Shown here: positions 2,827 through 19,931 of the stretch, piece by piece | How positions within the stretch are numbered: position 1 is the stretch's first letter | Layout of the letters: each line of letters opens with the position of its first letter | Source of the DNA: Streptomyces sp. AW19M42 | GTDB taxonomy: Bacteria > Actinomycetota > Actinomycetes > Streptomycetales > Streptomycetaceae | Length of the DNA stretch: 64,000 nt | Direction of reading: 5' to 3' | Assembly (NCBI GenBank): GCA_000470535.1 | Contig: CBRG010000110.1 | Coordinates: forward strand, 1 to 64,000 | Program-made: the position numbers and the translations under genes | Notes under the pieces: model-generated | The model's database searches: none | The model's input: only the letters and a program-made list of their open reading frames with translations | What the model was told of the DNA's origin: nothing

Positions 2827-3146
2827 GGGTCGAGCCTAAGGGCTGTCCTGTACGTGCTGTTCCTGGCTGGGACGATCGCGGCCGTGGAGCCTTCCGGCGA
2901 AGGCCGGGCCCTGCCCGTAACGGCCCGCCGGCGCACGAGCGTGACGACGCGACAGCTGAAACCGGTCACGGCCGGTTCTCCCGGTACCCCGCTTGGTCCG
3001 CTTTCGGCTATTTCTTCCGGCAGTCGGTGATTTCATGTAAGGCGTCTTCACCGGTTTCCCATTCTTCTGGGTGACGGGTATTCCATCGGGTCGGCGCATG
3101 GTATTTCATTGGGGTGGCAATTTCATCCATCAGAAGAGAGGCCTCC
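2827..3146. other. 320-bp intergenic region, relatively AT-rich near the esterase gene
   Basis: It separates the divergent protease and esterase genes. The half nearest the esterase (about 3000-3140) is clearly richer in A and T than the surroundings and contains three ATTTCAT copies, at 3028-3034, 3109-3115 and 3120-3126. An inverted pair ACCGG-TCAC-GGCCGGT lies near 2961. No convincing promoter boxes were picked out. The frames running through it show no family signature and are read as non-coding. Confidence 0.4.
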
Positions 3147-4150: not shown

Positions 4151-6049
4151 TCAGCGGACGGTGGAAGCCGGGTCCTCCCGCCCACCGGATGACCCGGCGG
4201 GCGCGGGTGCGGTGGGTCCCGCCGCATGCGCGGCCGTGACGGCCGGTGCGTCCTCCACCTCCGGCACGAGCATCTGGCTCGCGGCCAGTTCGCGGTACAG
4301 GCCGTCCGAGGCGACCAGTTCCGCGTGACTGCCGCGGGCCCGCACCCGCCCCTGTTCGAGGACCACGATCTGGTCCGCCTCCAGGACGGTGGAGAGCCGG
4401 TGCGCGATCAGGATCACCGTGCAGCGTTGCGAGGCCTGATCGACCGCGCTCCGCAGAGCGCGTTCGTTGTTGGCGTCGAGTTGTGCCGTGACCTCGTCCA
4501 GCAGCAGAACCTCGGGGCGGCGCAGCAGGGCGCGTGCGATGGCAAGCCGCTGGCGCTCTCCGCCGGACAGCGTGACGCCGCGGTTTCCCACCTCGGTGCG
4601 CAGCCCTTCGGGCTGCCGCGTGACCAGGGAGCTGAGCCGGGTCGCCCGCAACACCTCGTCGATGTCCTCGGCACTCGCGTCGGGCGCCGCGTACCGCAGG
4701 TTGTCCTCGATGGTGCCGGCCATCACGGGCGACTCCTGCTCCACGTAAGCGATGCGACGGCGTACCTCGGCGCGCGGCAGGGTCGCGATGTCCACACCGC
4801 CGATCCGGATGGCTCCGGAGTCGAGCTCGTGGAAGCGCTGGAGCAGGGCGAACAGCGTGGTCTTGCCCGCTCCGGACAGCCCCACCAGGGCGGTCTGGGT
4901 ACCGCCGGGCACCGCACAGGTGAGGCCCCTCAGCGCGGGCTCCCGGCCCGGGTAGGAGAACCGGACATCGTCGAACTCGACCAGGGGCGGGCCGCCTGCG
5001 CGTCGCCCGTCCGCCGCCGGCACGTCCACGTCGTCCTCGGCGGGTATGCGGTGCACCTCTTCGATGCGGCCGATCGCGCCCAGCCCCTGCTGGAGCATGC
5101 TGAGCCCGCCGACCAGCGAGCCGATCGGGCTGGCCAGGTAGAACACGTACAGAAGAAAGGCGATCAGGGCCGAGACCGTGAGGTCCCCGGAGGCCACCAG
5201 CGCGCCGCCGACCCCGAGTACCCCGAGGAACGCCGCCTGGATGGAAACCCCGGACAGCACCTTCACCCAGGCCACATAGCGTGCCCCCGTCAGCCCGGCG
5301 TGGTATGCGTCCTCGATGGCGTCCTCGGCCCGCCGGGTCTCGCGGCCCTCGCCGCCGTTGGCCTTGACCGTGCGGTACGCGCCGAGCGTACGGTCCAGAG
5401 CCGCCCCGACCGCGCCCACCGATCTCTGGGCCCGTGCGACCGCGTCCCTGATCTGCGGCAGGATCAGGCCCATCACGACGCCCACGGTCACCAGAACAGC
5501 TGCGGTCACCCCCAGCAGACCCAGGTGAACCACTCCCATCAGCACAACGGCGCCGAGGATGCTCAGCACACCGTTGGCCACCATCACCAGGCCCTCCGTG
5601 GTGGCACTCTGGACGAGGACGCTGTCCGAGGTGACGCGCGCGATCAGATCACCCGGCGGGCGGTGCTCCAGCTCTGGTACCCGCAGCCGGATCAGACGGT
5701 GCACCAGATCGCGGCGGATCTGCCGGACCACCCGCTCGGAGGTGCGCTGCTGCCACCAGGACTGAACGCCGGTGAGCCCGGCACCGAGGACCACCAGCGC
5801 GGCCAGCAGTATCACCGGGCCCATCACGCCGCGCCCCTCGTCCAGCCCGTTCAGCACGTCCTGGGCGACCAGGGGCTGGACGAGCCCCGCGGCGCTGGCG
5901 GCGAGCACCATCAGCAACGTGGTGGTGAGCACAGCGCGATGCGGGCGGGCATAGCGCAGCAGAACGCGCAGGGGCGCCGCCGCGGGAGCCTCGGCGTCCG
6001 GCGCGGGGACGGAGGCGGGAGCCACGTCTCGTACGGGGTCGTGTGTCAT
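4151..6049 (-). CDS. ABC exporter, fused membrane and ATPase domains
   Basis: A 632-residue half-transporter of the MsbA/BmrA type, which works as a dimer. The N-terminal part (about residues 28-320) is a six-helix exporter membrane domain. The C-terminal part is the ATPase: Walker A is GLSGAGKTT, the signature is LSGGERQRL, Walker B with catalytic Glu is VLLLDEVTA, and the switch His is in LIAHRLS. A 45-residue Ala/Pro tail follows. The ATG at 6049 lies 66 nt after the glycosyltransferase stop, so it is the last gene of the minus-strand lipid operon. By position it probably exports or flips the glycosylated product. The substrate is inferred from context only; a multidrug role cannot be excluded. 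Confidence 0.9.
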   Translation of the reverse strand: MTHDPVRDVAPASVPAPDAEAPAAAPLRVLLRYARPHRAVLTTTLLMVLAASAAGLVQPLVAQDVLNGLDEGRGVMGPVILLAALVVLGAGLTGVQSWWQQRTSERVVRQIRRDLVHRLIRLRVPELEHRPPGDLIARVTSDSVLVQSATTEGLVMVANGVLSILGAVVLMGVVHLGLLGVTAAVLVTVGVVMGLILPQIRDAVARAQRSVGAVGAALDRTLGAYRTVKANGGEGRETRRAEDAIEDAYHAGLTGARYVAWVKVLSGVSIQAAFLGVLGVGGALVASGDLTVSALIAFLLYVFYLASPIGSLVGGLSMLQQGLGAIGRIEEVHRIPAEDDVDVPAADGRRAGGPPLVEFDDVRFSYPGREPALRGLTCAVPGGTQTALVGLSGAGKTTLFALLQRFHELDSGAIRIGGVDIATLPRAEVRRRIAYVEQESPVMAGTIEDNLRYAAPDASAEDIDEVLRATRLSSLVTRQPEGLRTEVGNRGVTLSGGERQRLAIARALLRRPEVLLLDEVTAQLDANNERALRSAVDQASQRCTVILIAHRLSTVLEADQIVVLEQGRVRARGSHAELVASDGLYRELAASQMLVPEVEDAPAVTAAHAAGPTAPAPAGSSGGREDPASTVR

Positions 6050-6115
6050 GGGAAACCCATCAGGGAAGGGAGTCGGGGGCGGGGCGTCGACCCGGTGCCG
6101 TCCGGGTGGACGGCC

Positions 6116-7294
6116 TCAGTCGGGTACGGGCGCACCGGCCGCGGCATGCTCCAGGACATCGGCCGCGGCGTGCCTGCCACCGGCCGCCCGCAGCGAGTGT
6201 CCGATGGCGCGAGCCGCCGTGCGGTGTCCGCCGGAGTCGTCCAGCACGGTCTCCAGAGCCGTCCGCAGCCGGGCCGCGTCCACCCGGCCGAACCTGACCC
6301 GGATACCGGCGCCCGCGTCGACGACCTGCCCGGCGACGATCGGCTGATCGTCCCGGATCGGCGCCACCACCAGCGGCAGACCGTGCCACAGCGTTTCGCA
6401 GACGGTGTTGTGCCCGCCGTGCGACACCACTGCCGACGCCCGTGCCAACAGGTCGAGTTGGGGCACGTACTCCCGTACGAGGATGTCGCCCGGCACGTCG
6501 TGCAGGAGGCCGCCGGGGTCGACGATCACGCCCTGCACCCGGTCGCGCAGCGCGTCCAGAGCGATGACCGCCTCCCGCAGGAAGCGGCCCCCCGCATCGG
6601 TGTTGGCGGTGCCCAGCGACACCAGCACCAGCTCGCGGTCCTCGTCCAGCGCGTCCCACGGGAAGCCGGCATCGCCGTGGCGGGGCGCGATGACCGGGCC
6701 GACCAGCCGGACCCGGTCGTTCGGCAGGGGCGTGTCGCCGATCAGCTCACGTCCGGTGAACGCCACCACCCCGTGCGGGGAGAACCGGGGGTCGCCCTCG
6801 GCACGGGGGTCTCCCAACCGCTCGCGCAGGCCGCCCAGCAGTTCGCGCAGCCAGGCGGCCACCTTGGGGAACGCGGCGAGCGGGTCCACGAGTTCGGCCG
6901 AAGTGCTGGCCGAGGTGACGTACACGATCCCCCGCCGCTCGGCAGTGAGAGCACCGGCCAGCGCGTGCTGGTCGCTCAGGACGACGTCGGGCCGGAAGGC
7001 GTCGACGGCGGCGTCGACGTCGGGTGCCATGGCCTCGGCGAGGGGAACGAGGAAGCGTTCCCAGAGATGGCGGAACGCGGCCGGACCGGTCAGTCCCGGG
7101 GGCCGGTCCATTCGTCCGTCCGAGGGCATCGCACAGTCGTAGACCAGTGCGTCGTCGCCCGCGAGCCGCCGGATCTGCGCGGTGTGCCCGCACCAGGCGA
7201 CCTGGTGTCCCCGGCCGGTCAGCTCGTCGGCCACCCCGACCAGCGGGTTGGTGTGGCCGACGAGCGGCGGTACGACCAGGAGGAACCGCGTCAT
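6116..7294 (-). CDS. GT1-family (MGT/UGT-like) glycosyltransferase
   Basis: A 392-residue cytoplasmic sugar transferase of the macrolide-glycosyltransferase type (GT-B fold). The N-terminal domain starts MTRFLLVVPPLVGHTNPL, the acceptor-binding half with its conserved GHxxP-like turn. The C-terminal donor half carries SHGGHNTVCETLWHGLPLV followed by IRDDQPIVAGQV, the HxGxxT...E...P...DQ signature that binds the nucleotide sugar. The start at 7294 overlaps the hydrolase stop by 4 nt (ATGA), so the two are translationally coupled. The frame remains open far upstream, but that part is antisense-like to the hydrolase. It probably glycosylates the lipid made by the upstream synthases; sugar and acceptor are unknown. 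Confidence 0.9.
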   Translation of the reverse strand: MTRFLLVVPPLVGHTNPLVGVADELTGRGHQVAWCGHTAQIRRLAGDDALVYDCAMPSDGRMDRPPGLTGPAAFRHLWERFLVPLAEAMAPDVDAAVDAFRPDVVLSDQHALAGALTAERRGIVYVTSASTSAELVDPLAAFPKVAAWLRELLGGLRERLGDPRAEGDPRFSPHGVVAFTGRELIGDTPLPNDRVRLVGPVIAPRHGDAGFPWDALDEDRELVLVSLGTANTDAGGRFLREAVIALDALRDRVQGVIVDPGGLLHDVPGDILVREYVPQLDLLARASAVVSHGGHNTVCETLWHGLPLVVAPIRDDQPIVAGQVVDAGAGIRVRFGRVDAARLRTALETVLDDSGGHRTAARAIGHSLRAAGGRHAAADVLEHAAAGAPVPD

Positions 7295-8100
7295 CGCAGT
7301 GCTCCCGCGGGGGTGTGCGCGGCGATCCATTCCATGACGAGATCGCGGGTGACGGCGGGCTGCTCGACCAGGACCGAGTGGCCCTGCTCCGGCAGGATCA
7401 CCGTGCGGCAGCCGCTCACCCGCTCCTCCAGCTGAGGCGCTTGGGCGCTGAGCCCGGACTCGTCGCCGAAGACGGCGAGCAGCGGACGGGTCAGCGCCGA
7501 GAGGTCGTCGTCGATGGTCCGGCTCAGTGGCACGTCCTCGGCGAGCGTCGTCGTGCCCAGGATGCGGCCCGCGTTGCGAGACAGGCGGGCCGTGTGCGCC
7601 CCGTGACGCGCGGCGATCCAGCTGATCGACTCCTCGAGAACCAGTTGCCTCTTGGCGTCCGCGAGGCCCGCCCTCATGTGTTCGTTCCACCCGGCGACCG
7701 GCGGCTCGGCCTCGATCATGGTGACCGTGGCCACCCGGTCCGGATGCCAGGCGGAGAAGGCGGTGGCGATCGTACCGCCGAAGGAGTTGCCGACGAGATG
7801 GACCGGGACGGTCACGTCCAGGCCGTCCAGCAGCCCCAGCAGGTCCCCGACGAACGCGTCGAGGCGGTAACCGGTATCCGGCCGGTCGCTGCGCCCGTGG
7901 CCGCGGAGGTCGTACATGACGACGTCGTGTCCGGCCGCGGCGAAGGCGGGGCCCAGCGTGAAGTAGTAACTGGCGAGGCTGTCGGTGAGCAGCCCGTGGA
8001 CGAAGACGACCACGGGGGGCTCGGCCCCGTCGGGGGCGGGGATCGCGGAGGGTATCCGCTGCACGTGTGTGGTGATCTCGCCGGTACGGATCTTGGCCAT
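7291..8100 (-). CDS. alpha/beta-fold hydrolase
   Basis: A 269-residue alpha/beta hydrolase. The oxyanion-hole strand is VVVFVHGLLTD, the nucleophile elbow is LVGNSFGGTIATAF (Ser near residue 106), the acid is in LLAVFGDESGL and the His in ILPEQGHSVLVEQP, so the triad is complete. There is no signal peptide. Between the ACP gene and the glycosyltransferase gene, the simplest role is that of a stand-alone thioesterase or esterase releasing the acyl chain, since neither giant synthase has a recognisable thioesterase domain. Its start (ATG at 8100) has no GGAGG-like site, and the 133-nt spacer before it carries a pyrimidine-rich repeat. Substrate not known. Confidence 0.88.
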   Translation of the reverse strand: MAKIRTGEITTHVQRIPSAIPAPDGAEPPVVVFVHGLLTDSLASYYFTLGPAFAAAGHDVVMYDLRGHGRSDRPDTGYRLDAFVGDLLGLLDGLDVTVPVHLVGNSFGGTIATAFSAWHPDRVATVTMIEAEPPVAGWNEHMRAGLADAKRQLVLEESISWIAARHGAHTARLSRNAGRILGTTTLAEDVPLSRTIDDDLSALTRPLLAVFGDESGLSAQAPQLEERVSGCRTVILPEQGHSVLVEQPAVTRDLVMEWIAAHTPAGALR

Positions 8101-8175
8101 GGGGAGTCAGGTTCTTTCGTCGGTCGTGGCGGCACGCTCGGGTGGGCCTGCCGTGGGGGACGCCGAATCGCTGGT

Positions 8176-8214
8176 CAGGAGCAGGAGGAGCAGGAGGAGC
8201 AGGAGGGGCAGGGG
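8176..8214. repeat. 9-bp tandem repeat in the operon spacer
   Basis: Units CAGGAG, CAGGAGGAG, CAGGAGGAG and CAGGAGGGG follow one another in the 133-nt gap between the ACP and hydrolase genes. On the transcribed (minus) sense the RNA is repeated CUCCUCCUG, which resembles the 3' end of 16S rRNA rather than a ribosome binding site. Confidence 0.8.
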
Positions 8215-8233
8215 CAATAGGAGTCGCCTCGGA

Positions 8234-8563
8234 TCAGGGTGCAGCTCGCAGCGAATCCGCCACGTAGTCGACGAGCTGACCCACCGTCAGGGCGATGATC
8301 TCGTCCAGCTCCAGATCAGCGACGAACAGGGCGACGTTGACCCGCGCGCCGTAGAGCTCGCGGAGCGAACCGGCGAGCGTGACCAGGTCGATGCTCTCCA
8401 GTTCGAGGTCGTCGTGGAACGCCGTCTCCCGGTGGATCTCGACGTCGTCGAGTCCCTCCTCGGCCAGCAGATCACGGAGCAGGGCCGTGATGTCGGTGAA
8501 GGCCCTCTCCGAGAGGGCGTCATAGGTGACGGTGGTGGGCTGCCCAGTGGTTTCGGTACTCAT
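8234..8563 (-). CDS. discrete acyl carrier protein
   Basis: A 109-residue carrier protein. The segment FHDDLELESIDLVTLAGSL holds the Ser (near residue 57) that would carry 4'-phosphopantetheine; the flanking acidic residues and the following helix fit ACPs. It has a longer N-terminal extension (about 20 residues) than fatty-acid AcpP. The ATG at 8563 overlaps the stop of the upstream synthase gene by 4 nt (ATGA), so it is made together with PksB. Since PksA already contains one internal ACP, this free one probably either loads a starter or hands the finished chain to later enzymes. The phosphopantetheinyl transferase domain of PksB is the obvious activator. Confidence 0.9.
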   Translation of the reverse strand: MSTETTGQPTTVTYDALSERAFTDITALLRDLLAEEGLDDVEIHRETAFHDDLELESIDLVTLAGSLRELYGARVNVALFVADLELDEIIALTVGQLVDYVADSLRAAP

Positions 8564-11500
8564 TCCAGTTCTCCAGTCGTCTTGTCGTCCGTCGTCCAGG
8601 CGACGACGAACCGCCGCCCGTCCGGCTCCCGCACACCGCCGCTCACCTCGGTGCATTCCACGGCGTAGCGCGCGCCGCCGGTCTCCACCCGCAGTCGTTC
8701 GGGGGTCGCGGAGACCACCTCGAAATCGGCGGGGCGCCCCTGTAGCCCCGTCCCCATCCGTTTGGCGACGGCTTCCTTCGCGGCCCAGAACCGGGTGAAC
8801 CAGACCGCCGCGCCTTCGTCGGTCGTCGCCACGAGCCGGTCCAGGAGCGCCAGTTCGGCCGCGCCGCAGGCGGCCTGCGCAGTACCCCGGGGACGATCGG
8901 AGATCTCCTCCAGGTCGATCCCGCAGGGGCCGCGGCGGGCGATGGCCACACCGATCTCCCGGCAGTGCGCGATCGACACGACCAGACCCGCCCCCACGTC
9001 GCATCCGTGTTCGCCGCTGACCTCCGGCTGGCCGGACTCGGCATTGCGCACGGCGATCTCCGCCGGATAGAGGTCGCCGTGGCCCTCCTGCCACAGGAGC
9101 GTGCGCACCGCGTCCTTGGCCGCGATCCGGCCGAGGAGCCAGCGGCGCCGCGCCATGGGCCGCAGCCCTTCGTACACCTCGCGTTCCGCGCGGCCCAGCA
9201 TGGAACGCATCACCAGCTCGCGGGTGGCGAGATCGGGCCAGCGTTCGTTGACCAGCAGCCAGCCGCCGGGCCGTGGTGCGGAGAGGGTGTTGCTCCCCGG
9301 GTAACGGTCGACCGCGCGCATGGTCGCGTCGTTGTCGAAGCGCCGGTCCTGCCAGCCGGTGAACTCGGCCCACACCCGGCCCTCGTGGCTGAGCTGCATG
9401 TCCGCCGTGAGGGTGGACCCGGTCACCTCGGTGATGCGGACGGCACACGTCAGCCGGGTGCCGGGGGCGGGGTCGGGGCCGAAGAAGCGGATACGGTCCA
9501 TGCCCACGGGGAAGACCGTTGTGCGCTCGTCGCGCTTCGACATGATCCAGTAGCCGAGCAGCTGGCCCACGTTGTCCAGCAGAGCGCCGGGCGCCTCGGG
9601 CGCGGTCAGCACCCCTCGTACGTATTGGTCGGCCTCGGCCAGCAGTTCGCTCACACCTTGGAAGCGGGGGCCGTGGAACATCCACCGATCCGTGTACAAC
9701 TGCTCGGCCCGCAGGTCGGGTTCGCGCTCCGCGGCGGGGTCGGTCGACCAGATCTCGGGGGCGGCCGGATAGTCGGGCGCCAACTCCACGACCGCGCGCG
9801 AGTAGCCGGTGAGGGCGACTTCCACCCGGTCGGGCGTCACGTCCCGCACCTCCACCGGGACCCGCACCGAGGGGATCGCGGCGATCCATTTCAGCAGCCG
9901 CACCTCGTGCACGGCGATCGCACGCGTCCCCGGGCGGGCCCGCTCGGCGATCCGCATCAGATGCGTGATGACCGTGGTGGCCGGTACCACGGGCCAGCGG
10001 TCCCCCTCCTCGGGCCAGCCGGGCCGCTGCCAGAAGAAGCAGTGGTCCAGCAGGTACGGCATCTCGGCGACGTCCACCCGCAGTTCCCGGGGCACCGCCG
10101 GAGCCGGGGGCCCGGCGGGCGCAGGAGGCCCCGCGGGGCGACGGGCCGGAGCGGGACGACCCGGCCGGACCTGTGGGGTGCGGCGGGTGAGACCGCGGGC
10201 ACCGATCAGCTCCCGTGCCGCCGACGCCGTGTCGTCGAGCAGCGCGGACAGCTCGGCGCCCAGCGGGTCGTGCGCCGCGGCCGGAGCCACCGGAGCGGCG
10301 CTGTCGCGGAGCGCCGGGGCGGCGACCATGCCGTGCATCCGGGCGGGCAGGGAGACCAGCGCCCCACTCAGATCCAGCCGCACGCCAGGACGGCCCGAGG
10401 CGGGCCGTGCCGTGGCCGTGCCGTGGTCGGCCGCAGTCCGGGAGAGCAGCGGGCCGGCCTCGGGAGAGGCGCCCTCCGTCCACAGGGCGGTCACCACGCG
10501 GCGCAGCTGCGCCAGGCTGTCGCGCGCCGGGGAGTGCGCGCTGACGACGAGCCGGTCCCGCCCGGCGAGGGTGTCGTCGATGAGCGAACCGAGCTGGCCC
10601 GCGCCGAGTTGCACGAAGGCCCTGAACCCGGCGTCGTGGAGCGCGAGGACCGTTTCCCGGAAGCGGACGGGCTCCAGCAGGTGACGGACGAAGAGGTCGC
10701 GCACGGCCTCCGGCCCGGAGGGAAAGGGAGCGGCGATGGTCGCGGACCAGACCGGGGTGGTGGCGGGGTTGATCGAGTAGCGCTCGGCAGCCGCCCGGAT
10801 CGGGCCCAGATACGGTGCGAGCAGCGGAGTGTGGAAGCCGGAACGGAACGGCAGCACCTGGCAGATGATGCCCTGGCCGCGGAAGTGGCTCACCAGTGTG
10901 GCCACCGCGTCCTCGGGGCCGCAGATCATCGACTGGTTCGGTGCGTTGTCGTGCGAGAGCACGACGTCCTCGCGGCCGGCGAGCTCTTCCAGCACCCGAG
11001 GGGCGGGCATGCCCAGTACCCCGAAGGCGACGCCCGGCACCCGGAGCGCGTCCGGGTCGAAGTCCGCGAGGAAGGCGTCCACCTCGTCCGCCGTGTGGAT
11101 GCCGCCGCAGGCCATGGCCGTCCACTCGCCCACGCTGTGTCCGGCGACGGCGTCCGGGATGACGCCCAGCCGGCGCAGCGAGGTGTCCAGCAGCCGCCCC
11201 AGCTGGAAGACGGCTGCACCGTGCCGGCCCACGTCGCCCACGGGGGCGCCGGAGCCCAGCGCCCAGGGCAGCCCGAATCGCGTGGCCAGTTCCTCGACGC
11301 GCGGAGTGAACTCGGCCTCCAGGCCGGGAAAGACGAACGCGGTACGGCCGCCCGCGGCTTCCAGCACCGGTCGCGGGGTGAACCACACATCGGTGCGGCC
11401 ACGCCAGGGCACGCCCCGGGCCACGGCCTTGCGGGCCAGTTTCAGTCTGCGTTCCGTCGGGTCGACGATGCCCAGGCGCACCGGACCGCCCCCCGGGACC

Positions 11501-13065
11501 CGCTCGTCCCGGCCCGACGCCAGCACCGCGGAATCGTCCGCGGTCAGCAGCGCGGCCAAGTCGTCGACGCTGTCGGCGGCGAGCCGGAGCACCCGTTCCG
11601 GCTCACTCACCGTCGCCCTGGGCACCCTCGCGGCAGTGGACGTCACCGGTTGTTCCAGCACCACGTGGGCGTTGATGCCGCCGAAGCCGAAGGCGTTCAC
11701 GCCCGCGCGGCGCGGCGTGCCGCTCTCCGGGTCCTGCCAGGGGCGGGGCTGGGCCAGGGGGGCGAACCTTGTTCCCTCAAGAGCCGGATTGGGGTCATCG
11801 CAGTGCAGCGTGGGCGGGAGCACCCCGTGGTGCACCGCCAGTGCCGCCTTGATCAGACCGGCGATCCCCGCGGCCGGCATCGTGTGACCGATCATCGACT
11901 TCACCGAGCCGATGGCCGCCCGCTCGCCACCGTGCGCCGGCCCGAACACCTCGGCCAGCGTGGCGAGTTCCGCGTTGTCCCCGGCCGAGGTCGCCGTGCC
12001 GTGTGCTTCGAGCAGGCCGATCGAGTCGGCGGCCCTGGGGTCGAGTCCCGCCGCCTCCCACGCCTGGCGCACCGCACGGACCTGACCGCCCGGGTCCGGG
12101 GCGAACAGGCTGGCCGAGCGGCCGTCGCTCGCCACACCGGTGCCCGTGATCACCGCGTAGATCCGGTCCCCGTCCCGCTCGGCGTCGGCGAGCCGCTTCA
12201 GGACGACCACTCCGGTGCCCTCACCGATCAGCACACCGTCGGCGTCCCGGTGCAGGGGGCGGATGCGCTCGGAGGGGGAGAGCGCCCCGAGCTGGTTGAA
12301 GACGCTCCACAGAGTGATGTCGTGGCAGTGGTGCACGCCACCCGCCAGCATCACGTCGCAGCGCCCGGAAGCGAGTTCTCGAACCGCGTGGTCGACCGCG
12401 ATCAGCGAGGACGCGCAGGCAGCGTCGACCGTGTAGGCCGGCCCGCGCAGATCGAGACGGTTGGCGACCCGGGAGGCCGCCAGATTCGGTACGAGACCGA
12501 TCGCCGATTCGGGCTGCTCGGGGCCGAGCCGGTCCGTGAACGCCGCGCGCACCTGCTCCAGCTGGCCGTGGCTGAGCTGTGGGGCCAGCTCGCTCAGCGT
12601 CCGCACCAACTGGTGTGCGGTGCGCACCCGCTGGTCCAGCCGGACCAGACCGGGCGTCAGGTATCCGCCGCGGCCCAGCACGATCCCGGCCCGCTCCCGT
12701 GCGGACGGCAGCACGCCGTCACCACCCGCGTCCAGCAGCGAACGGTGCGCCACCTCCAGCGCGATCAGCTGGTCCGGTTCGGTGCCCGCCACCGACGACG
12801 GCATGATCCCGAACCGGGTCATGTCGAACTCGGTGGTCCGGTCCACGAACCCACCGCGCCGGCAGTAGATCCGGTCGCTTCTGCGCTCCTTGCCCGAGGC
12901 ACCCGGTGCGTAGAAACCCGGGTCCCAGCCGTCGTCGGGAACCTCGGTGATGGAGTCCACGCCGCCGACGATGTTGGCCCAGTAGGCGTCCAGGTCACCC
13001 GCGCCCGGGAAGAGGGCGCCCATACCGATGATGGCGACCGGCGTGCGTGCGTCCACCTTCGTCAC
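8560..13065 (-). CDS. multidomain lipid/polyketide synthase B: KS-AT-DH-PPTase
   Basis: A 1501-residue megasynthase. The ketosynthase (about 5-470) has VDAACASSL with Cys near 215, then EAHGTAT and IGSVKSMIGHT, so all catalytic residues are present. The acyltransferase (about 570-860) has AGHSVGEW and GFHTPLL. After an Ala/Pro linker comes a double-hotdog dehydratase (about 980-1290) with His in MPYLLDHCFF and Asp in LLDNVGQ. The C-terminal 190 residues are a phosphopantetheinyl transferase (GIDLEEI, FWAAKEAVAKRMGTG). The start is GTG at 13065, overlapping the PksA stop (GTGA). The layout resembles PUFA-synthase or heterocyst-glycolipid-type (hglE-KS) enzymes. It lacks KR, ER and ACP, which PksA supplies. 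Confidence 0.9.
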   Translation of the reverse strand: MTKVDARTPVAIIGMGALFPGAGDLDAYWANIVGGVDSITEVPDDGWDPGFYAPGASGKERRSDRIYCRRGGFVDRTTEFDMTRFGIMPSSVAGTEPDQLIALEVAHRSLLDAGGDGVLPSARERAGIVLGRGGYLTPGLVRLDQRVRTAHQLVRTLSELAPQLSHGQLEQVRAAFTDRLGPEQPESAIGLVPNLAASRVANRLDLRGPAYTVDAACASSLIAVDHAVRELASGRCDVMLAGGVHHCHDITLWSVFNQLGALSPSERIRPLHRDADGVLIGEGTGVVVLKRLADAERDGDRIYAVITGTGVASDGRSASLFAPDPGGQVRAVRQAWEAAGLDPRAADSIGLLEAHGTATSAGDNAELATLAEVFGPAHGGERAAIGSVKSMIGHTMPAAGIAGLIKAALAVHHGVLPPTLHCDDPNPALEGTRFAPLAQPRPWQDPESGTPRRAGVNAFGFGGINAHVVLEQPVTSTAARVPRATVSEPERVLRLAADSVDDLAALLTADDSAVLASGRDERVPGGGPVRLGIVDPTERRLKLARKAVARGVPWRGRTDVWFTPRPVLEAAGGRTAFVFPGLEAEFTPRVEELATRFGLPWALGSGAPVGDVGRHGAAVFQLGRLLDTSLRRLGVIPDAVAGHSVGEWTAMACGGIHTADEVDAFLADFDPDALRVPGVAFGVLGMPAPRVLEELAGREDVVLSHDNAPNQSMICGPEDAVATLVSHFRGQGIICQVLPFRSGFHTPLLAPYLGPIRAAAERYSINPATTPVWSATIAAPFPSGPEAVRDLFVRHLLEPVRFRETVLALHDAGFRAFVQLGAGQLGSLIDDTLAGRDRLVVSAHSPARDSLAQLRRVVTALWTEGASPEAGPLLSRTAADHGTATARPASGRPGVRLDLSGALVSLPARMHGMVAAPALRDSAAPVAPAAAHDPLGAELSALLDDTASAARELIGARGLTRRTPQVRPGRPAPARRPAGPPAPAGPPAPAVPRELRVDVAEMPYLLDHCFFWQRPGWPEEGDRWPVVPATTVITHLMRIAERARPGTRAIAVHEVRLLKWIAAIPSVRVPVEVRDVTPDRVEVALTGYSRAVVELAPDYPAAPEIWSTDPAAEREPDLRAEQLYTDRWMFHGPRFQGVSELLAEADQYVRGVLTAPEAPGALLDNVGQLLGYWIMSKRDERTTVFPVGMDRIRFFGPDPAPGTRLTCAVRITEVTGSTLTADMQLSHEGRVWAEFTGWQDRRFDNDATMRAVDRYPGSNTLSAPRPGGWLLVNERWPDLATRELVMRSMLGRAEREVYEGLRPMARRRWLLGRIAAKDAVRTLLWQEGHGDLYPAEIAVRNAESGQPEVSGEHGCDVGAGLVVSIAHCREIGVAIARRGPCGIDLEEISDRPRGTAQAACGAAELALLDRLVATTDEGAAVWFTRFWAAKEAVAKRMGTGLQGRPADFEVVSATPERLRVETGGARYAVECTEVSGGVREPDGRRFVVAWTTDDKTTGELE

Positions 13066-16000
13066 CAGCCCGAAGCGGTGTAGACCGTGGCGTGCGTCTC
13101 GGGCAGACCCCAGGCCAGTTCCCGCAGCAGGCTGAGCGGGCCCTCGGCCGGGTCGATCAGCTTGATCCCCCGGGCCGCGTAGGAGCGCATCAGCTCGGGT
13201 GTCACCATGCCGCCGCCCGTCTCCTGGGCCGCCCAGGGACCCCAGTGCACGGTGAGCCCGCGCCGGCCCGGCCTGCTCCAGCGCCGGCCCAGCTCCTCCA
13301 GGGCGTCGTTGGCGGTGGCGTAGTCGCACTGGCCGCGATTGCCCAGGGCCGCGGCGATACTTCCGAAGAGCACCGCGAAGTGCGGGCCGGCCGGAGTTGC
13401 GTCCACCGCGTCGAGCAGGGCTTCGGCCCCCCCGACCTTGACGGAGAAGACCCGCGCGAAGGATTCCGCGGTCTTCTCCGCGATCAGCTTGTCCTCGATC
13501 ACCCCGGCCGCGCAGACGACCCCGTCCAAGCGGCCGTACTCGGCGTGAACGCCCTTCACGAGGCTGCTGACGGCCTCCGTGTCCAGCACGTCCACGCAGT
13601 GGTAGTGCGCTTCGCTGCCCAGCTCCCGCAGGTCCCGCAGCGTGTCGCGCACCTCGCGGGCGGCCAGCAGGGCGTTCAGCCTGCGCTCGATCTCGGCGGG
13701 CTGGGTGAGCCCCGTCGCGAGGAGCGCGCGTCGCAGCGCGTCGCGGCCCTGTGCCGATGCCGTCTGCGGGTCCTCGGCCTTCGCGGGCACCGGGGTGCGG
13801 CCCATGAGTATCAGGCGGCAGCGGCTCGCGGCGGCCAGCGTACGGGCGAAGCCGGCGGTGATGCCGCGCGCGCCGCCTGCCAGCAGCACCACGGCCTCCC
13901 CGTCCAGGCCGAGGGCCTGTGCCTCCGAGACGCCGTCCCCGGCGGGGCCGGCTCCGGTGTCGGCGAGTGCGCCGAGACCGACGGGTGTCAGCCGCAGCCC
14001 CCACCGGGTGGCGCCGTCGGTGAGCACGACGGGCTCCCGGTCCTCGGCGGCCGCCTCGACGAGCAGTGCGGCCGCGACGGCTTCGGCGTCGGCGGTTTCG
14101 GCCACCTCCAGCAGGGTCGCGGCGCACTCCGGGTACTCCCGGACGATCGTACGGAAGAACCCGCGCAGGCCACTGACCGCGCCCACGGTGCGCCGCTCCA
14201 CCGCGATCAGCCGGGTGGGAGACGCCGCGAGAACCTTCTGGAACAGCGCGAGGGCGTCGGGCAGCGGTGGCGTGTCCGCGTCCAGCGCACCGAGGTAGAG
14301 CACGGTGGCGGGTACGTCGTCGGGTACGTCGTCGGTGATCACCGGTTCGGCACCGATGGCGCGCAGCCGGTCCGCCGTTGCCTCGGCGGACGCACCGCCG
14401 CCGAGCAGCAGTACCCGGGTTCCGGCCGGGACCGACCCGGTCACCCCGGGCAGCGCCTCCTTGGTGAACTCCAGCCGCACGGGGGCGACGATCTCCGGTT
14501 CGACGGCCTCGGGCGCGACCGGCACCGGGGCGGACACCGCCGAGCGCGCGTCGGCCCCGGGATCGGGCTCACCGCCGCCGAGCGCGGTGACGAGGAGGCC
14601 GGTGAGGGCGGCGGCGGTGCGGGCGGAGCTGAGCTGGTCGAGCCCCTCGGGGGTGTTGGTGGGCAGGCCGAGGCGGGTGGCGAGTTCGCCCGCTATCTCG
14701 GCGCGCTTGATGGAGTCGACGCTGAGATCGGCTTCGAGGTCGAGATCGGGTTCGATCATGTCCACGGGGTAGCCGGTGCGGTCCGCGACCACGCCGAGGA
14801 CGGTGTCGAGCACGTACGCCCCGTCCCTGACAGGTGCGGTCGTGGCCGCGGCGGGGACCGAAGGCCCCGCGGGAGCCGCGACGGGAAGTTGCGGCGGATC
14901 GTAGGCGACGGTTCCGGTGTACGCCGGGGCGAGGTGCACCGGCGAGGGCGCGGCTTCGTATCCGTCCGGCCCGCCCAGATAGCGCAGCAGCACATCCCGC
15001 TGGGCCGCCACCATCTCCCTGCTGCTGCGGAGGAACTCCGCGATGAGGGCATCGGGGCCCGAGAGGGGGCCGGTGTTCTGGTGATGTTCCGACACGATCG
15101 ACTCCGTTATCCGACGGGCGGGATGGAATGCGCCTGGGGCGATGGTGCCGTCGGCGCGGCGCAGCAGGTGGCCGTCGACCGTCCACCCGGGGGCACGTGC
15201 GGCGTCGGCGGTCTCCGGGTCGACGGTGTCCCGCCCCTGGACGAGCCGGGCGACGCGCACATCGACTCCCAGGACCGCGAGCCGGGCCAGCGCGTCGAGC
15301 AGGGCGCGCAGTCCGTCACGGTGGCCGGTGGCGACGGGCACGGTGCGATGCGGACGGTCGCCGAGGACCGCGTCCACCAGCCGCGACAGCACCTGGCCGG
15401 GTCCGACCTCGGCGAAGACCCTCGCGCCCGCCTCGTACATGGCCTCGATCTGCTCGGCGAAGCGCACCGGCGCCTCGATCTGCGCCGCCAGCGACTCGCG
15501 GATGCCCTCGGGCGTGGCCGGGTAGCGTCCGGCGGTCCGGTTCGCCCACACGTCGAAGGCGGGAGGGCGCGGTGTGACCTGCGACAGATGGCCGGCGAAG
15601 CTTTCGGCCGCACCCGACAACAGCGGGCTGTGGAAGGCACAGGCCACCTGGAGCGGTTTGGCCGAGTGACCTGCCTCCCGCAGCGCGGTGCAGGCCGCGA
15701 GCACCGACTCGGTCGGCCCCGAGACGACCGTCTGAGATGCCGAGTTGAGGTTCGCCGCCACGACGTCACCGAGGGAGCCGGCCGAGCGGAGTACTTCCTG
15801 GATCTGCTCGGCACCTGCGTTCACGGCCGCCATCGATCCCGGGTCCCCGTCCGTGACCGCGCCCATGATCGCTGCGGCGCGGGCTGCACTCGCCGCCAGC
15901 AGTTCCTCGGGCGCGAACACTCCGGCCGCCCCCAGCGCCGCCAGCTCGCCGTAGCTGTGCCCCGCCGCCATCGCGGGCCGCACCCCCAGGCTGCCGAACA

Positions 16001-19000
16001 GGTCCGCGACGGCCAGCTCGACCATGCCGAGGGCGGGCTGTGCCACGGTCGTGTCGGTGATCCCGGCCAGCTGCGCCGCCTTCGTGTCCTCGTCGAACGC
16101 GGCGGGCGGATAGAGGGCCCCGGCCCACTCCCGGCCGAGGTGGAGGTAGCGGTGCAACTCGGGGAAGGCGACGAAGAGATCCGCCAGCATCCCGGGCCGC
16201 TGACTGCCCTGGCCGGGAAAGAGGAAGGCCAGCGCATCGCCCGGCGCGGTCCCGGTGTCGTACAGCCCCTCCTGCTCGGGTACCGCGCTGTACAGGCCCT
16301 CACCGGGGGAGTGCTCACCGTCGACCGCCCGCTTCAGCAGGCCGGGCAGCGTGTCGAGCGAGTCGGCGACCACCGCGAAGCGGACCGGCTCCTCGTTCAG
16401 TGCTGCCCGGTCGGCGCGGAGTGCGGCGTGACGCGCATAGTCCCGCAGCCGCCAGGTCCCGCCCCGCTCCAGCAGGTCGAGCAGTCGTCGTGCGGTGCGG
16501 GCGGCGCTCTCTTCGTCCTTGCCGCGGAAGACGAACAGCTCGGCGGGCCAGCTGTCGCGTGCGTGGGACGCCGGCGCCTGGTCGTGGGCGCGCAGCACCA
16601 CGTGGAAGTTGGTGCCGCCGAAGCCGAAGGCGCTGACCCCGGCGATCCGCTCGGCAGGCTCCGAGGCCCAGGGCCGTGCCTCGGTGTGGAAGGCGAACGG
16701 GCTTGCCTCCTGCTCCCAGGCCGGGTTGGGCTCACTCAGGTGCAGCGTGGGCGGTTTGATGCCGTGGTGGAGGGCGTATGCCGTCTTGATCAGACCGGCC
16801 ATTCCTGCCGCGCACTTGGTGTGCCCGATCTGCGACTTGACGGATCCGATGGTGCAACTGCCGGGCTGTGCACCGGATTCGGTGAAGAACTCGGTGATGG
16901 TGGCGAGTTCGGTACGGTCGCCGACGACGGTGCCGGTGCCGTGCGCCTCGATGAGGCCCACCTCGGCGGGCGAGATGCCCGCTGTCGCGTACGCCCGCTC
17001 CAGCGCGGCCCGCTGGCCCTCGGGGCGGGGTGCGGTCAGCCCCAGCGCGCGGCCGTCGCTGGCACTTCCCACCCCGTCGATGACGGCGTAGATCCGGTCG
17101 CCGTCCCGCTCCGCGTCAGCGAGCCTCTTCAGGGCCACACAGCCCACACCCTCACCCAGCGCGATGCCGTCGGCATGCGTGTCGAAGGTGGCGGAGCGGC
17201 CGGTGGGGGAGAGCGCGTGCACCGAGGAGAACAGCAGGAAGTCGTTGATGCCGTTGTGCAGGTCGGCGCCGCCGCACAGGACCAGGTCACTGGTGCCGGT
17301 CACCAGCTCCTTGCAGGCCGCGTCCACCGCGGTCAGCGAGGAGGCACAGGCGGCGTCCACCGTGTAGTTGGCGCCGCCCAGGTCGAGCCGGTTGGCGATG
17401 CGGCCCGCGATGACGTTGGCCAGCATGCCGGGGAAGGAGTCCTCGGTCAGCTTCGGGAGCTGTTCGTCAAGGCCTGGCGGGACGCTGCCGGTGTACGCGG
17501 GAAGCACGGTGCGCAGCGTCGTGGCGCTGGAGAGGTCGCTGCCCGCCTCCGCTCCGAAGATCACCGAGGTGCGCCGGTGGTCGGTGCCCGGCGCGTCGTA
17601 CCCGGCGTCCACCAGCGTCCGGCGGGCTGCTTCGAGCGCCAGCAGCTGCACCGGTTCGATGCTCGGGAGCGAGGCCGGGGGGATGCCGTAGACCAGCGGG
17701 TCGAAGGGGATCTCGGGCAGGAAACCGCCCCAGCGGGACGGGGTGCGCTCGCCGTCGCCGTCCGGTGCGTAGTACAGCTCCGGGTCCCAGCGCTGTGTCG
17801 GAACCTCCGTCACGCAGTCCTTGCCGGACAGGACGTTGGCCCAGAACTCGCTCAGGTCGGTGGCACCGGGGAACATGCCGGCCATGCCGACCACCGCGAT
17901 CCGCAGTGGCGCGGGCGCGGGTTCCCGGCCGGCGGTACCGGGTCCGAGACTTCTGACGCGCTCACGGAGCCGGTGGCCCGCGCCCTCGGTCACCGACGCG
18001 TGCAGGGCGGCCACATCGGTGGTGGCGTGCCGCAGCACCACCACGTCCCCTGCCATGAACATGCCCTCGTCCGCCTGGCGGTCCTCGTCCACCGTCAGGA
18101 GGTTGTCGCCGACCCGCTCGATGCCTTTGGACGCCAGCCGCAGCCGGCCGACGTTGAAGCGTTCCAGCTGCTCCCAGGCCTCCCGGTCGGGGACCCCGCG
18201 TTCGCTCAGTTCGGCCTTGAGGGCCGTGAAGTCGCGAGTGATGGCGGAGTGCGCGCAGCGGGTGGCGTGCCCGGGAGCCGTCTCCAGCAGGTCGGTGCGC
18301 TGTGCGGCGATCACCTGGCGCTGGTACAGCGGCTGGATCGCTCCTGCCGTCACCGCCTCCGTGGTGAACAGGTAGGCCGTGCCCATCAGTACACCGAAGC
18401 CCACGCCGGCGCGGGTCAGGGGAGCGGCGAGGGCGGCTGCCATGGCAGCCGACCGCTCGTCGTGGATACCGCCGGCGAAGAGCACGGTGAGTTCGCCCGC
18501 GGACCGGCTGCCGGACTTGGCGAGAAAGTCGAGCAGGACCTCGGTCTGCGCCTGCCACAGCGGGAAGGATCCACGCGGGCCGACATGACCACCGCACTCC
18601 GCGCCCTCGAAGATGAAGCGGCGGGCCCCCGCTGCCAGGAACTGCCGCAGCAGGCCGGGCGACGGCACGTGCAGGAAGGTGGTGATGCCCTCGGCCTCCA
18701 GGGCCGCGGCCTGAGCGGGTCTGCCGCCCGCGATGATCGCGTGCGAGGGACGCAGCTCCCGGACCACGTCCAGTTGGGCGTCCTTCACGGCGTCGTCCGC
18801 GAAGCCCAGGATGCCCACGCCCCAGGGGGCGTCCCCGAGCAGCTCCCTGGTCTCCTCCAGCATGGAGCGGGTGCGCTCGGCTCCGGCCAGCGCCAGTGCC
18901 AGGAAGGGCAGTCCGCCCTCGGCAGCCACAGCCGCCGCGAAGCCGGGCTGGTCGCTCACCCGGGTCATCGGTCCCTGGGCGATGGGCAGCGTCGTCCCGA

Positions 19001-19931
19001 GCGTCCTGGCGCCGGGTGAGCCGGCGGCCAGTACGGCGGCGGGGCCGCTGTCGGCCAGTGCCTCGGCCACGGCATGGCGGACGGCCCTCAGGGCCAGGGA
19101 CACGTTGGTGTAGTGCCGGGCGAACGATCCGCTCAGATAGACGTCCTGGCCTGCCGGCAGGAACTGGACACGTGGATCGTCCGATCCGACCGCGGCGGCG
19201 AACTCCTCGGCGCCGTCGGGGAGCCGGGGCGCGTGCGGGCCCCGGCGACGCAGCACCCGCTGACCGTGGTGCACCACGGTCTCGGAGCCGTCGAGTCCGC
19301 GGAGGGTGTCTGCCACGCCTGCGGGCAGTTCGGCCTCGTCGAAGAGGGCCAGCTGGGTGTCGAGCACGACGCCCGCCGCTCCCCCTGCGACGGCCGCGGC
19401 GGCACTCTGCGGCCCGATGCCTCCCGAGGCCCATACGGGAATCCCCAACGTCCCGTCCGCCAGGACTTGTTGGAGAAGGATGAACGTGCTCAGCTCGCCG
19501 ACCCGGCCGCCGTTCTCATGGCCGCGGACCACCAGCCCGTGTGCGCCGGCGCGAGCGGCCCGGTGTGCTTCGGCGAGGTCGGTGACCTCCACCAGGACAC
19601 GGCGGCCGGGGAACTCGTCAGGCCGGCGCGCGGTGTCGGCCAGCAGGACGGTGGCCGCGCCCTCGGGGAGCGCGGCGGCGGTCCCGTCGCCCGGAAGCAG
19701 GCAGCCGGGGCGTATCCGTACGCCGAACGGCGCCCGGGTCCATCGGCTCGTCCGCTCCAGGAGTTCCTGGGCCCTGCGTGCGTCACCCGTGGGCAGTTCC
19801 AGGACGCCGAGTGCGCCCGCCCGAGCTGCGGCGGCGGTGAGCCGGGGCGAAGGGTGATGGAGCGGGTTGACCGCGATGACGAGGTCCGGTGCCGACAGTC
19901 CGCTGCGCGCGTCGGGTATCGGCGTCGGCAT
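13062..19931 (-). CDS. multidomain lipid/polyketide synthase A: NPD-NPD-KS-AT-ACP-KR
   Basis: A 2289-residue megasynthase. Residues 1-620 hold two nitronate-monooxygenase/PfaD-like flavin barrels in tandem: the first with GIPVWASGGIGPQSAAAA, the second with IAQGPMTRVSD, ECGGHVGPRG and LFAGGIHDERS. These are the likely enoylreductase. The KS (about 675-1110) has VDAACASSL (Cys near 860), EAHGTGT and IGSVKSQIGHT. The AT (about 1230-1550) has AGHSYGEL and CAFHSPLL, a malonyl-type motif. An ACP carries DLSVDSIKRAEI near 1738. The ketoreductase (about 2000-2289) has LLAGGARGITAGF, a Ser in LFGSIAAAL and a Tyr in DYATANDAL. The ATG at 19931 is preceded by AGGAG at 7 nt. It is the first gene of the operon. 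No TTA codon was found. Confidence 0.92.
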   Translation of the reverse strand: MPTPIPDARSGLSAPDLVIAVNPLHHPSPRLTAAAARAGALGVLELPTGDARRAQELLERTSRWTRAPFGVRIRPGCLLPGDGTAAALPEGAATVLLADTARRPDEFPGRRVLVEVTDLAEAHRAARAGAHGLVVRGHENGGRVGELSTFILLQQVLADGTLGIPVWASGGIGPQSAAAAVAGGAAGVVLDTQLALFDEAELPAGVADTLRGLDGSETVVHHGQRVLRRRGPHAPRLPDGAEEFAAAVGSDDPRVQFLPAGQDVYLSGSFARHYTNVSLALRAVRHAVAEALADSGPAAVLAAGSPGARTLGTTLPIAQGPMTRVSDQPGFAAAVAAEGGLPFLALALAGAERTRSMLEETRELLGDAPWGVGILGFADDAVKDAQLDVVRELRPSHAIIAGGRPAQAAALEAEGITTFLHVPSPGLLRQFLAAGARRFIFEGAECGGHVGPRGSFPLWQAQTEVLLDFLAKSGSRSAGELTVLFAGGIHDERSAAMAAALAAPLTRAGVGFGVLMGTAYLFTTEAVTAGAIQPLYQRQVIAAQRTDLLETAPGHATRCAHSAITRDFTALKAELSERGVPDREAWEQLERFNVGRLRLASKGIERVGDNLLTVDEDRQADEGMFMAGDVVVLRHATTDVAALHASVTEGAGHRLRERVRSLGPGTAGREPAPAPLRIAVVGMAGMFPGATDLSEFWANVLSGKDCVTEVPTQRWDPELYYAPDGDGERTPSRWGGFLPEIPFDPLVYGIPPASLPSIEPVQLLALEAARRTLVDAGYDAPGTDHRRTSVIFGAEAGSDLSSATTLRTVLPAYTGSVPPGLDEQLPKLTEDSFPGMLANVIAGRIANRLDLGGANYTVDAACASSLTAVDAACKELVTGTSDLVLCGGADLHNGINDFLLFSSVHALSPTGRSATFDTHADGIALGEGVGCVALKRLADAERDGDRIYAVIDGVGSASDGRALGLTAPRPEGQRAALERAYATAGISPAEVGLIEAHGTGTVVGDRTELATITEFFTESGAQPGSCTIGSVKSQIGHTKCAAGMAGLIKTAYALHHGIKPPTLHLSEPNPAWEQEASPFAFHTEARPWASEPAERIAGVSAFGFGGTNFHVVLRAHDQAPASHARDSWPAELFVFRGKDEESAARTARRLLDLLERGGTWRLRDYARHAALRADRAALNEEPVRFAVVADSLDTLPGLLKRAVDGEHSPGEGLYSAVPEQEGLYDTGTAPGDALAFLFPGQGSQRPGMLADLFVAFPELHRYLHLGREWAGALYPPAAFDEDTKAAQLAGITDTTVAQPALGMVELAVADLFGSLGVRPAMAAGHSYGELAALGAAGVFAPEELLAASAARAAAIMGAVTDGDPGSMAAVNAGAEQIQEVLRSAGSLGDVVAANLNSASQTVVSGPTESVLAACTALREAGHSAKPLQVACAFHSPLLSGAAESFAGHLSQVTPRPPAFDVWANRTAGRYPATPEGIRESLAAQIEAPVRFAEQIEAMYEAGARVFAEVGPGQVLSRLVDAVLGDRPHRTVPVATGHRDGLRALLDALARLAVLGVDVRVARLVQGRDTVDPETADAARAPGWTVDGHLLRRADGTIAPGAFHPARRITESIVSEHHQNTGPLSGPDALIAEFLRSSREMVAAQRDVLLRYLGGPDGYEAAPSPVHLAPAYTGTVAYDPPQLPVAAPAGPSVPAAATTAPVRDGAYVLDTVLGVVADRTGYPVDMIEPDLDLEADLSVDSIKRAEIAGELATRLGLPTNTPEGLDQLSSARTAAALTGLLVTALGGGEPDPGADARSAVSAPVPVAPEAVEPEIVAPVRLEFTKEALPGVTGSVPAGTRVLLLGGGASAEATADRLRAIGAEPVITDDVPDDVPATVLYLGALDADTPPLPDALALFQKVLAASPTRLIAVERRTVGAVSGLRGFFRTIVREYPECAATLLEVAETADAEAVAAALLVEAAAEDREPVVLTDGATRWGLRLTPVGLGALADTGAGPAGDGVSEAQALGLDGEAVVLLAGGARGITAGFARTLAAASRCRLILMGRTPVPAKAEDPQTASAQGRDALRRALLATGLTQPAEIERRLNALLAAREVRDTLRDLRELGSEAHYHCVDVLDTEAVSSLVKGVHAEYGRLDGVVCAAGVIEDKLIAEKTAESFARVFSVKVGGAEALLDAVDATPAGPHFAVLFGSIAAALGNRGQCDYATANDALEELGRRWSRPGRRGLTVHWGPWAAQETGGGMVTPELMRSYAARGIKLIDPAEGPLSLLRELAWGLPETHATVYTASGW

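Follow-up and report, generated by a model that had tools for sequence, protein, structure and literature searches.

Introduction

The described systems closest to the locus reported here belong to the Ars-type phenolic-lipid pathway (PMC6274091), in which, according to PMC4824345, the C23-C25 fatty acids for alkylresorcinols are made by ArsA. Shulse and Allen (PMC3098273) divided phosphopantetheinyl transferases (PPTases) into Types A-L, which carry motif P1b, and Types M-T, which carry motif P1b'. A Beijerinckia cluster is listed there as Type P, the phenolic-lipid type, C22 is given as an example in Table 1 of that paper, and clusters of Actinosynnema, Frankia, Renibacterium and S. avermitilis form Type M, whose product is given as unknown. 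In the present work we describe a cluster of seven genes in Streptomyces sp. AW19M42 (assembly GCA_000470535.1; genome of 8.0 Mb in 670 contigs), located on contig CBRG010000110.1 within the stretch of 64,000 nucleotides (positions 1 to 64,000) that was analysed and is called the window. Six of the genes form a minus-strand operon at 4151-19931, encoding two megasynthases (PksA and PksB), a free acyl carrier protein (ACP), an alpha/beta-hydrolase, a GT1-type glycosyltransferase (GT) and an ABC exporter, and the seventh, on the plus strand, encodes an SGNH lipase. We propose, with a probability of roughly 0.6, that a synthase of the Ars branch would here make a long-chain hydroxy-acid lipid that is released, glycosylated and exported.

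Results

PksA is a neighbour of the Type P phenolic-lipid synthases

The Type P synthase of Beijerinckia pBIND02 and the synthase of the Methylosinus C49 cluster, which is called Type P here by likeness, share one domain order, that is nitronate monooxygenase (NMO, in two stretches)-ketosynthase (KS)-acyltransferase (AT)-ACP-ketoreductase (KR), and PksA has the same order. PksA is colinear with both synthases, at 42% identity over 1665 aligned columns in the case of Beijerinckia and at 38% over 2445 columns in the case of Methylosinus. Similarly, residues 1004-1497 of PksB match the dehydratase (DH)-PPTase partner proteins of the two clusters at 28-30%.

For comparison within the family, the best 80 of at least 574 stretches with likeness to PksB in genome contigs (any KS kin counts) were taken together with two plasmid loci and the window, giving 83 loci. 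The window and nine of the 82 others represented the operon in a tree of 41 KS domains, the root of which was not inferred; two chain-length factors (CLF), SgcE, one modular and the trans-AT sequence, present in an earlier tree, were omitted for their long branches. The ten PksA KS rows form one clade (100/100) adjoining two Type P rows (joint branch 99/96), so that the PksA KS stands beside, not inside, the Type P rows, of which there are only two for reference, the Methylosinus row being assigned by likeness. Separate groups are formed by the PfaA-like (100/99), PfaC-like (100/99), modular (100/100) and PksB (100/100) KS domains. A warning was attached to the tree because of the meeting of long PfaC-like branches; it does not touch the PksA and Type P rows. 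A reading made earlier from the DNA letters, hereafter the sequence-only reading, had proposed a PUFA-like or hglE-type synthase (PUFA, polyunsaturated fatty acid) and had named beforehand a grouping with ordinary modular polyketide synthases (PKS) as the outcome that would speak against it; the KS domains of both PksA and PksB lie outside the modular clade, and an iterative, non-modular synthase of the lipid type is supported by this placement.

The PPTase of PksB fits the pattern of Types M-T, with P1a of the form x(G/D)xP, P1b' of the form hShxH and no P0. Among the 74 full rows of the alignment (9 short rows were excluded), P1a was found in 73, P1b' in 71, P0 in 2 and P1b in none. Type M is the likely home of the operon, judged by PPTase motifs and hosts and not by Type M KS sequences: its hosts are likewise actinobacterial, an Actinosynnema sp. 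(L022) carries the operon, and the PPTases have P1a and P1b' without P0, a combination common to Types M-T.

The likeness to the Type P systems of Azotobacter (ArsA/ArsD), Beijerinckia and Methylosinus thus extends over the tandem NMO-KS-AT-ACP-KR synthase, the DH-PPTase partner, the neighbouring KS clade and P1b', and the Beijerinckia cluster also has ABC genes and a glycosyltransferase, albeit of the GT4 and not the GT1 kind. However, in Type P clusters the two synthase genes are separated by genes for type III PKS, which the operon described here lacks. PksB has an extra intact KS-AT when set against the Type P clusters compared, PksA has one ACP and is accompanied by a free ACP whereas the Beijerinckia synthase has two ACPs, and the alpha/beta-hydrolase, the GT1 and the SGNH lipase are further differences. 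The kinship of PksA and of the DH-PPTase to Type P points to a long-chain synthase of the Ars branch with an extra KS-AT, and not to a PUFA synthase.

The enoylreductase of PksA is FabK-like

An AlphaFold model, computed for residues 1-645 of the window protein only, contains two TIM barrels with two sets of eight strands (mean pLDDT 85), and in the loop of motif III (residues 444-453) the pLDDT falls below 50. Motif III and the role of its histidine are described in PMC13311796. The second barrel (NMO-2) has the motif GxECGGH, and its His449 is kept in 74/74 rows, while the commonest residues at that place in the first barrel (NMO-1) include Arg (56 rows), Pro (10) and Ala (1); NMO-1 is probably structural. 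FabK was the sole NCBIfam match to residues 1-645 (138.9 bits, below the FabK cut-off of 453), and among solved structures Foldseek ranked FabK (E 2e-16, TMt 0.81) well ahead of PfaD (E 1e-6, TMt 0.45). The enoylreductase (ER) of PksA is FabK-like, and its assignment to the PfaD/nitronate-monooxygenase kind in the sequence-only reading was wrong.

The sole PfaD-family match of the genome is at C85:37348-38670 (668.7 bits, above cut-off). The surrounding locus on this other contig, G000:C85:37348-46210 (L113, L131), encodes this PfaD, a PfaA-like protein (834.6 bits, below the PfaA cut-off) and a second KS-bearing protein. With a FabK-like ER in PksA and PfaD on C85, the PUFA-like cluster of this genome is the C85 locus, separate from the operon.

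Gene content and active sites of the operon

Domains and coordinates are collected in Table 1. Start and stop codons overlap by 4 bases at the PksA-PksB, PksB-ACP and hydrolase-GT junctions, and gaps of 133 bases before the hydrolase gene and 66 bases before the ABC gene separate the others. Pfam matches were obtained for both megasynthases and, among the other open reading frames (ORFs), for the free ACP (PP-binding), the hydrolase, the GT1-type glycosyltransferase and the ABC exporter. Coordinates, overlaps and domains confirm the six-gene unit claimed in the sequence-only reading. The gene list of that reading held as to these six genes and had overlooked the SGNH lipase, the PPTase at the C-terminus of PksB and the second of the two NMO barrels.

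Table 1. Genes and domains of the cluster, with positions in the window.
Feature	Position	Strand	Basis
PksA, 2289 aa, NMO-NMO-KS-AT-ACP-KR iterative type I synthase (ArsA-like)	13062..19931	-	Pfam, alignment, KS tree
PksA NMO-1, first TIM barrel, motif III without His	19227..19886	-	alignment, predicted structure
PksA NMO-2, FabK-like enoylreductase barrel, GxECGGH, His449	18132..18998	-	Pfam, NCBIfam, alignment, structure search
PksA KS, Cys862	16584..17909	-	Pfam, alignment, tree
PksA AT, GHSYGE and AFHS	15252..16232	-	Pfam, alignment
PksA ACP, Ser1740, DSIKR	14637..14804	-	Pfam, alignment
PksA KR, Ser2191 and Tyr2204	13230..13895	-	Pfam, alignment
PksB, 1501 aa, KS-AT-DH-PPTase	8560..13065	-	Pfam, alignment
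PksB KS, Cys217, own clade	11644..13053	-	Pfam, alignment, tree
PksB AT-like domain, GHSVGEW and GFHT	10606..11178	-	Pfam span, alignment
PksB DH (PS-DH), His1008 and Asp1164, homologous to DH of Type P partner protein	9286..10068	-	Pfam, alignment
PksB PPTase (ACPS), P1a SGQP and P1b' VSIAH, no P0	8581..9153	-	Pfam, motifs
Free-standing ACP, 109 aa, Ser57	8234..8563	-	Pfam, alignment
Alpha/beta-hydrolase, GNSFGG, His241	7291..8100	-	Pfam, alignment, fold comparison
GT1-type glycosyltransferase	6116..7294	-	Pfam, NCBIfam below cut-off, solved relatives
ABC exporter, MsbA-like half transporter	4151..6049	-	Pfam; MsbA-like model below cut-off
SGNH/GDSL lipase, signal-peptide-like start (by eye)	3114..3947	+	solved relatives: phospholipase A1, lipase

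Catalytic residues were scored in alignments of the window with the related loci and, in agreement with the claim that the KS, AT, KR, DH and ACP motifs are intact, were kept in all or nearly all aligned loci. For PksA this applies to the KS cysteine (77/77), the AT serine (78/78), the ACP serine (75/78) and the KR serine and tyrosine (76 and 77, respectively, of about 80 rows); for PksB to the KS cysteine and the AT serine (83/83 each) and to His1008 and Asp1164 of the DH (80/80 each). The serine of the free ACP is kept in 80/80. The two AT motifs of PksA are presumably those of a malonyl-type enzyme.

The fold of the hydrolase is esterase- or acyl-homoserine-lactonase-like, and the enzyme is a natural candidate for a release or ester-forming step. 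Its nucleophile is Ser in 68 of 78 rows and Cys in 10, and no single alignment column could be assigned to its acid residue. All ten hydrolases with a Cys nucleophile (L051, L052, L057, L058, L062, L063, L064, L070, L081, L085) occur in operons in which a methyltransferase gene follows the GT gene. The GT matched the NCBIfam models MGT (168.8 bits) and OleI self-immunity (97.6 bits), both below cut-off, and its solved relatives include 8h5d, an oleandomycin glycosyltransferase (2iya) and YjiC (titled UDP-glucosyltransferase). No sugar-nucleotide gene was found in the operon or in the 20 ORFs scanned on its flanks, and to this extent the operon is self-contained, as had been noted.

A conserved core with variable ends

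The sequence-only reading had asked for the six-gene order in other genomes, and what was found is a five-gene core, with the exporter as the sixth gene in 14/83 loci only. The whole core (NMO, PksA, PksB, ACP, hydrolase, GT) is present in 68/80 loci, and ten others are cut by locus ends. The gene after the GT gene encodes a methyltransferase in 42 of the 83 loci, an ABC exporter in 14, a 508-aa protein in 5, a short-chain dehydrogenase in 4 and none of these in 11; 7 loci with less than 1.2 kb past the last core gene were not scorable. The methyltransferase has weak likeness to known ones (UbiG, 26.8 bits, below cut-off), and the clusters of minus-strand ORFs downstream of the GT gene are probably mostly shadows of its gene. 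The protein of about 508 aa (L041, L043, L046, L050, L060) has a lipoprotein-like start in L041 and no Pfam match in L046.

A homologue of the SGNH lipase was found in the (short) flanks of 11 of the 82 other loci. With the window counted, it accompanies 9 of the 14 ABC-type operons, 0 of the 42 methyltransferase-type operons and 3 others. Fisher's test for the ABC type (9/14) against the other scorable loci (3/62) gave p = 2.5e-6, a value that overstates the case because the loci are related. Six other genes from the window flanks were present in 0 or 1 of the same 82 loci. Exporter and lipase thus tend to travel together, suggesting that a last step may take place outside the cell, and the co-occurrence of the exporter with a secreted-looking lipase fits a product that would be exported.

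The nearest named relatives of the operon are from Streptomyces. When 60 other genomes of the genus, drawn evenly, were searched for the DH-PPTase of PksB at E <= 1e-30, an orthologue was found in 19, at 51% identity or more in 15 and at 43-45% in four. The same 19 genomes contain the hydrolase at 145 bits or more; the count covers the DH-PPTase and the hydrolase, not the rest of the operon. Among 100 genomes of the phylum, the window's included, the DH-PPTase was found in 3, one of them in another genus. Also, linear plasmids of two Danish Streptomyces (L101, L102) carry the methyltransferase-type operon near transposase genes.

Site of the cluster and neighbouring regulator

An M50 peptidase gene (2038-2826) and a SARP gene (20499-23846) lie 17.7 kb apart in the window, with the operon and the lipase gene between them. 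Eleven SARP loci of relatives were compared: an M50 gene is within about 1 kb in six (L120-L125), a cut-off M50 match was obtained in two, and no M50 match was found in the short flank of the SARP gene in L127, L128 and L130. No operon was seen in four of the six genomes in which the two genes adjoin (G005, G009, G004 and G001, the last only 79% complete), and in the other two (G007, G011) the DH-PPTase is elsewhere in the genome. Since the M50 and SARP genes adjoin in relatives, the cluster was, as one block, either inserted here or lost from the other genomes.

The AfsR/SARP regulator itself was rejected as a member of the cluster. Matches at E <= 1e-100 occur in 12/12 other genomes searched within the genus, whether or not these have the operon, its gene adjoins M50 in relatives, and none of the 82 other operon loci, with their short flanks, has a homologue at more than 50% identity and 60% length. 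The ORF call from 20007 is probably too long, homology beginning near 20499. A heptamer triplet with an 11-base period upstream of pksA (20111-20139) resembles a SARP site, at a score only weakly above chance. Of 1000 first-order Markov sequences 11 scored as high, and the SARP upstream regions of six relatives score 12-15 against 17 for the window; the triplet is given no weight.

Genes around the block are ordinary chromosomal ones (glutamine synthetase, GlnE, PanB, NAD synthase), and by GC content the block is not set apart from its surroundings. Apart from an inverted repeat at 20451-20480, no repeats of at least 14 bases were found that would mark the block ends. The window gave no matches in Rfam and tRNA scans, a sigma-70 scan gave no promoter, and a terminator scan found 4 where 2.7 were expected.

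Discussion

Genes for release, glycosylation and export are present in the operon, as the sequence-only reading had it, and the product is predicted from them. For the glycosylated hydroxy-acid lipid that we favour, the PPTase of PksB would activate the ACPs, and PksA and PksB would extend malonyl units. KR, DH and the FabK-like ER would reduce most cycles, so that the chain would be long, for the most part saturated and left with one or more hydroxyls. As the operon contains no type III PKS, the chain must leave in another way, and the hydrolase might release or esterify it. The GT1 would then add a sugar; a common housekeeping donor is needed because no sugar-nucleotide genes were seen, probably UDP-glucose, and the hydroxyl left by a KR-only cycle would be the simplest acceptor, given that the operon has no hydroxylase. 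Finally, the ABC protein may export the product and the SGNH lipase hydrolyse or transesterify it outside the cell.

Several observations weigh against this proposal. Neither of the two Type P clusters compared has an equivalent of the extra KS-AT of PksB, and the chain could therefore be programmed differently, for instance as a polyene. None of the operon genes indicates the source of an acceptor hydroxyl, and the GT could form a sugar ester instead. Acidic residues of the PPTase are lost in some relatives, Asp1384 being conserved in 67 rows and replaced by Ala or Gly in 11; Lys1430 is conserved in 70 rows. No hydrolase was seen in L067 and L071, and export by the ABC protein is not a family-wide feature, as the exporter follows the GT gene in so few loci.

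A synthase of the PUFA or hglE type, giving a polyunsaturated or heterocyst-glycolipid-like chain, was suggested by the sequence-only reading. The best NCBIfam model for PksA is indeed omega_3_PfaA (858.8 bits, below the cut-off of 1010.1), PksA shares the KS-AT-ACP-KR order with the Pfa synthases (PfaA-D), and the operon contains a glycosyltransferase. The DSIKR motif of the PksA ACP, which we take to be of the PUFA type, is shared as well; DSI motif matches number two in 19 of the 83 orthologues, one in 57 and none in 7. The Pfa systems differ in having a PfaD-type ER, a CLF and another KS clade: PksA has its FabK-like ER and a single PP-binding stretch where several tandem ACPs are expected of PfaA, its KS lies with Type P and outside the PfaA-like clade, and PksB offers no KS-CLF pair, its one KS having an intact active site and lying outside the PfaC clade. 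A PPTase with P1b' and without P0 does not fit either, the absence of the P1b of Types A-L arguing against hglE, and the same genome has its separate PfaD/PfaA-like cluster on C85. A PUFA-like synthase is not supported, and we consider a chain of either kind improbable. PUFA-synthase-like hybrids have been charted in PMC13291983, where the Streptomyces clusters named have pfaD, unlike the operon; literature of the wider field is covered by PMC9582728. A long conjugated polyene, formed without effective enoyl reduction and then glycosylated and exported, would follow the example of Rhodococcus RerA/RerB, an actinobacterial iterative KS-AT-ACP-KR-DH system with PPTase and thioesterase, which in E. 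coli gave hexa- to nonaenes, the enzyme-bound chains reaching C22 (PMC11563203). For such a product the operon, too, has KR, DH and PPTase. However, RerA is described in the available text of PMC11563203 as having no ER domain, while NMO-2 keeps its complete motif and invariant histidine, and a plasmid-borne relative from Rhodococcus opacus, which took the place of RerA in the KS tree, falls with the PfaA-like KS and not with PksA, which makes a polyene unlikely. For an enediyne comparison, SgcE was on a very long branch in the first KS tree, and no DUF1702-type accessory genes, as found beside the C-1027 PKS, were present in the operon or in the 20 ORFs scanned to either side of it.

Two further explanations concern the genes around the synthase. 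GT, hydrolase and ABC protein may be a self-protection set that glycosylates a toxic lipid or polyketide inside the cell, exports it and reactivates it outside; the matches of the GT to the MGT and OleI models speak for it, as do the exporter and the lipase, with its signal-like start, that accompany the GT. Against it, the GT is kept in the methyltransferase-type loci, where the exporter does not follow, and the enzyme found with it is a lipase and no glycosidase, so that we regard such a role as doubtful. The operon family could also encode the biosynthesis of the antiviral glycolipid macrodilactones cycloviracin, fattiviracin and glucolypsin, which is a long shot; macroviracin would presumably be a further candidate. 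The monomers of the three named compounds are glucosylated long-chain hydroxy acids, with chain lengths of C19-C28 in Table 6 of PMC4365757 and other lengths, up to C33, in its text. PksA and PksB would then make long malonate-derived acids with hydroxyls kept at chosen cycles, the GT1 would glucosylate them, and an esterase-fold enzyme, either the hydrolase (with its occasional Cys nucleophile) or the SGNH lipase, might link two glucosyl-acids in a head-to-tail manner. In the larger subfamily, the methyltransferase could provide O-methylated sugars like those of cycloviracin, whose non-cyclic sugars are 2-O-methylated (PMC4365757). Producers are known from Streptomyces, Kibdelosporangium and Nocardia, and these host groups and the predicted enzyme set fit the operon. 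Against this stand the several glucoses that cycloviracin and fattiviracin carry at different hydroxyls, with one GT in the operon, and the iso-branched chains of glucolypsin with their C2 methyl. No gene cluster for macrodilactones of the cycloviracin type was found in the literature searched, including the available parts of PMC4365757 and PMC13047676.

Orthologues of two genes of the cluster were found in roughly one in three sampled genomes of the genus, yet no characterised product of the operon was recognised in the literature searched, with subscription papers largely outside the search. In its architecture PksB goes a step beyond the two Type P clusters compared, in that a second, intact KS-AT precedes the DH-PPTase part. 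A conserved core with swappable ends (a methyltransferase, an exporter with its lipase, or others) leads to testable predictions of how products would differ between strains, and the kinship with phenolic-lipid enzymes would have chemists look not for a PUFA but for a lipid with a sugar and a long, mostly saturated chain.

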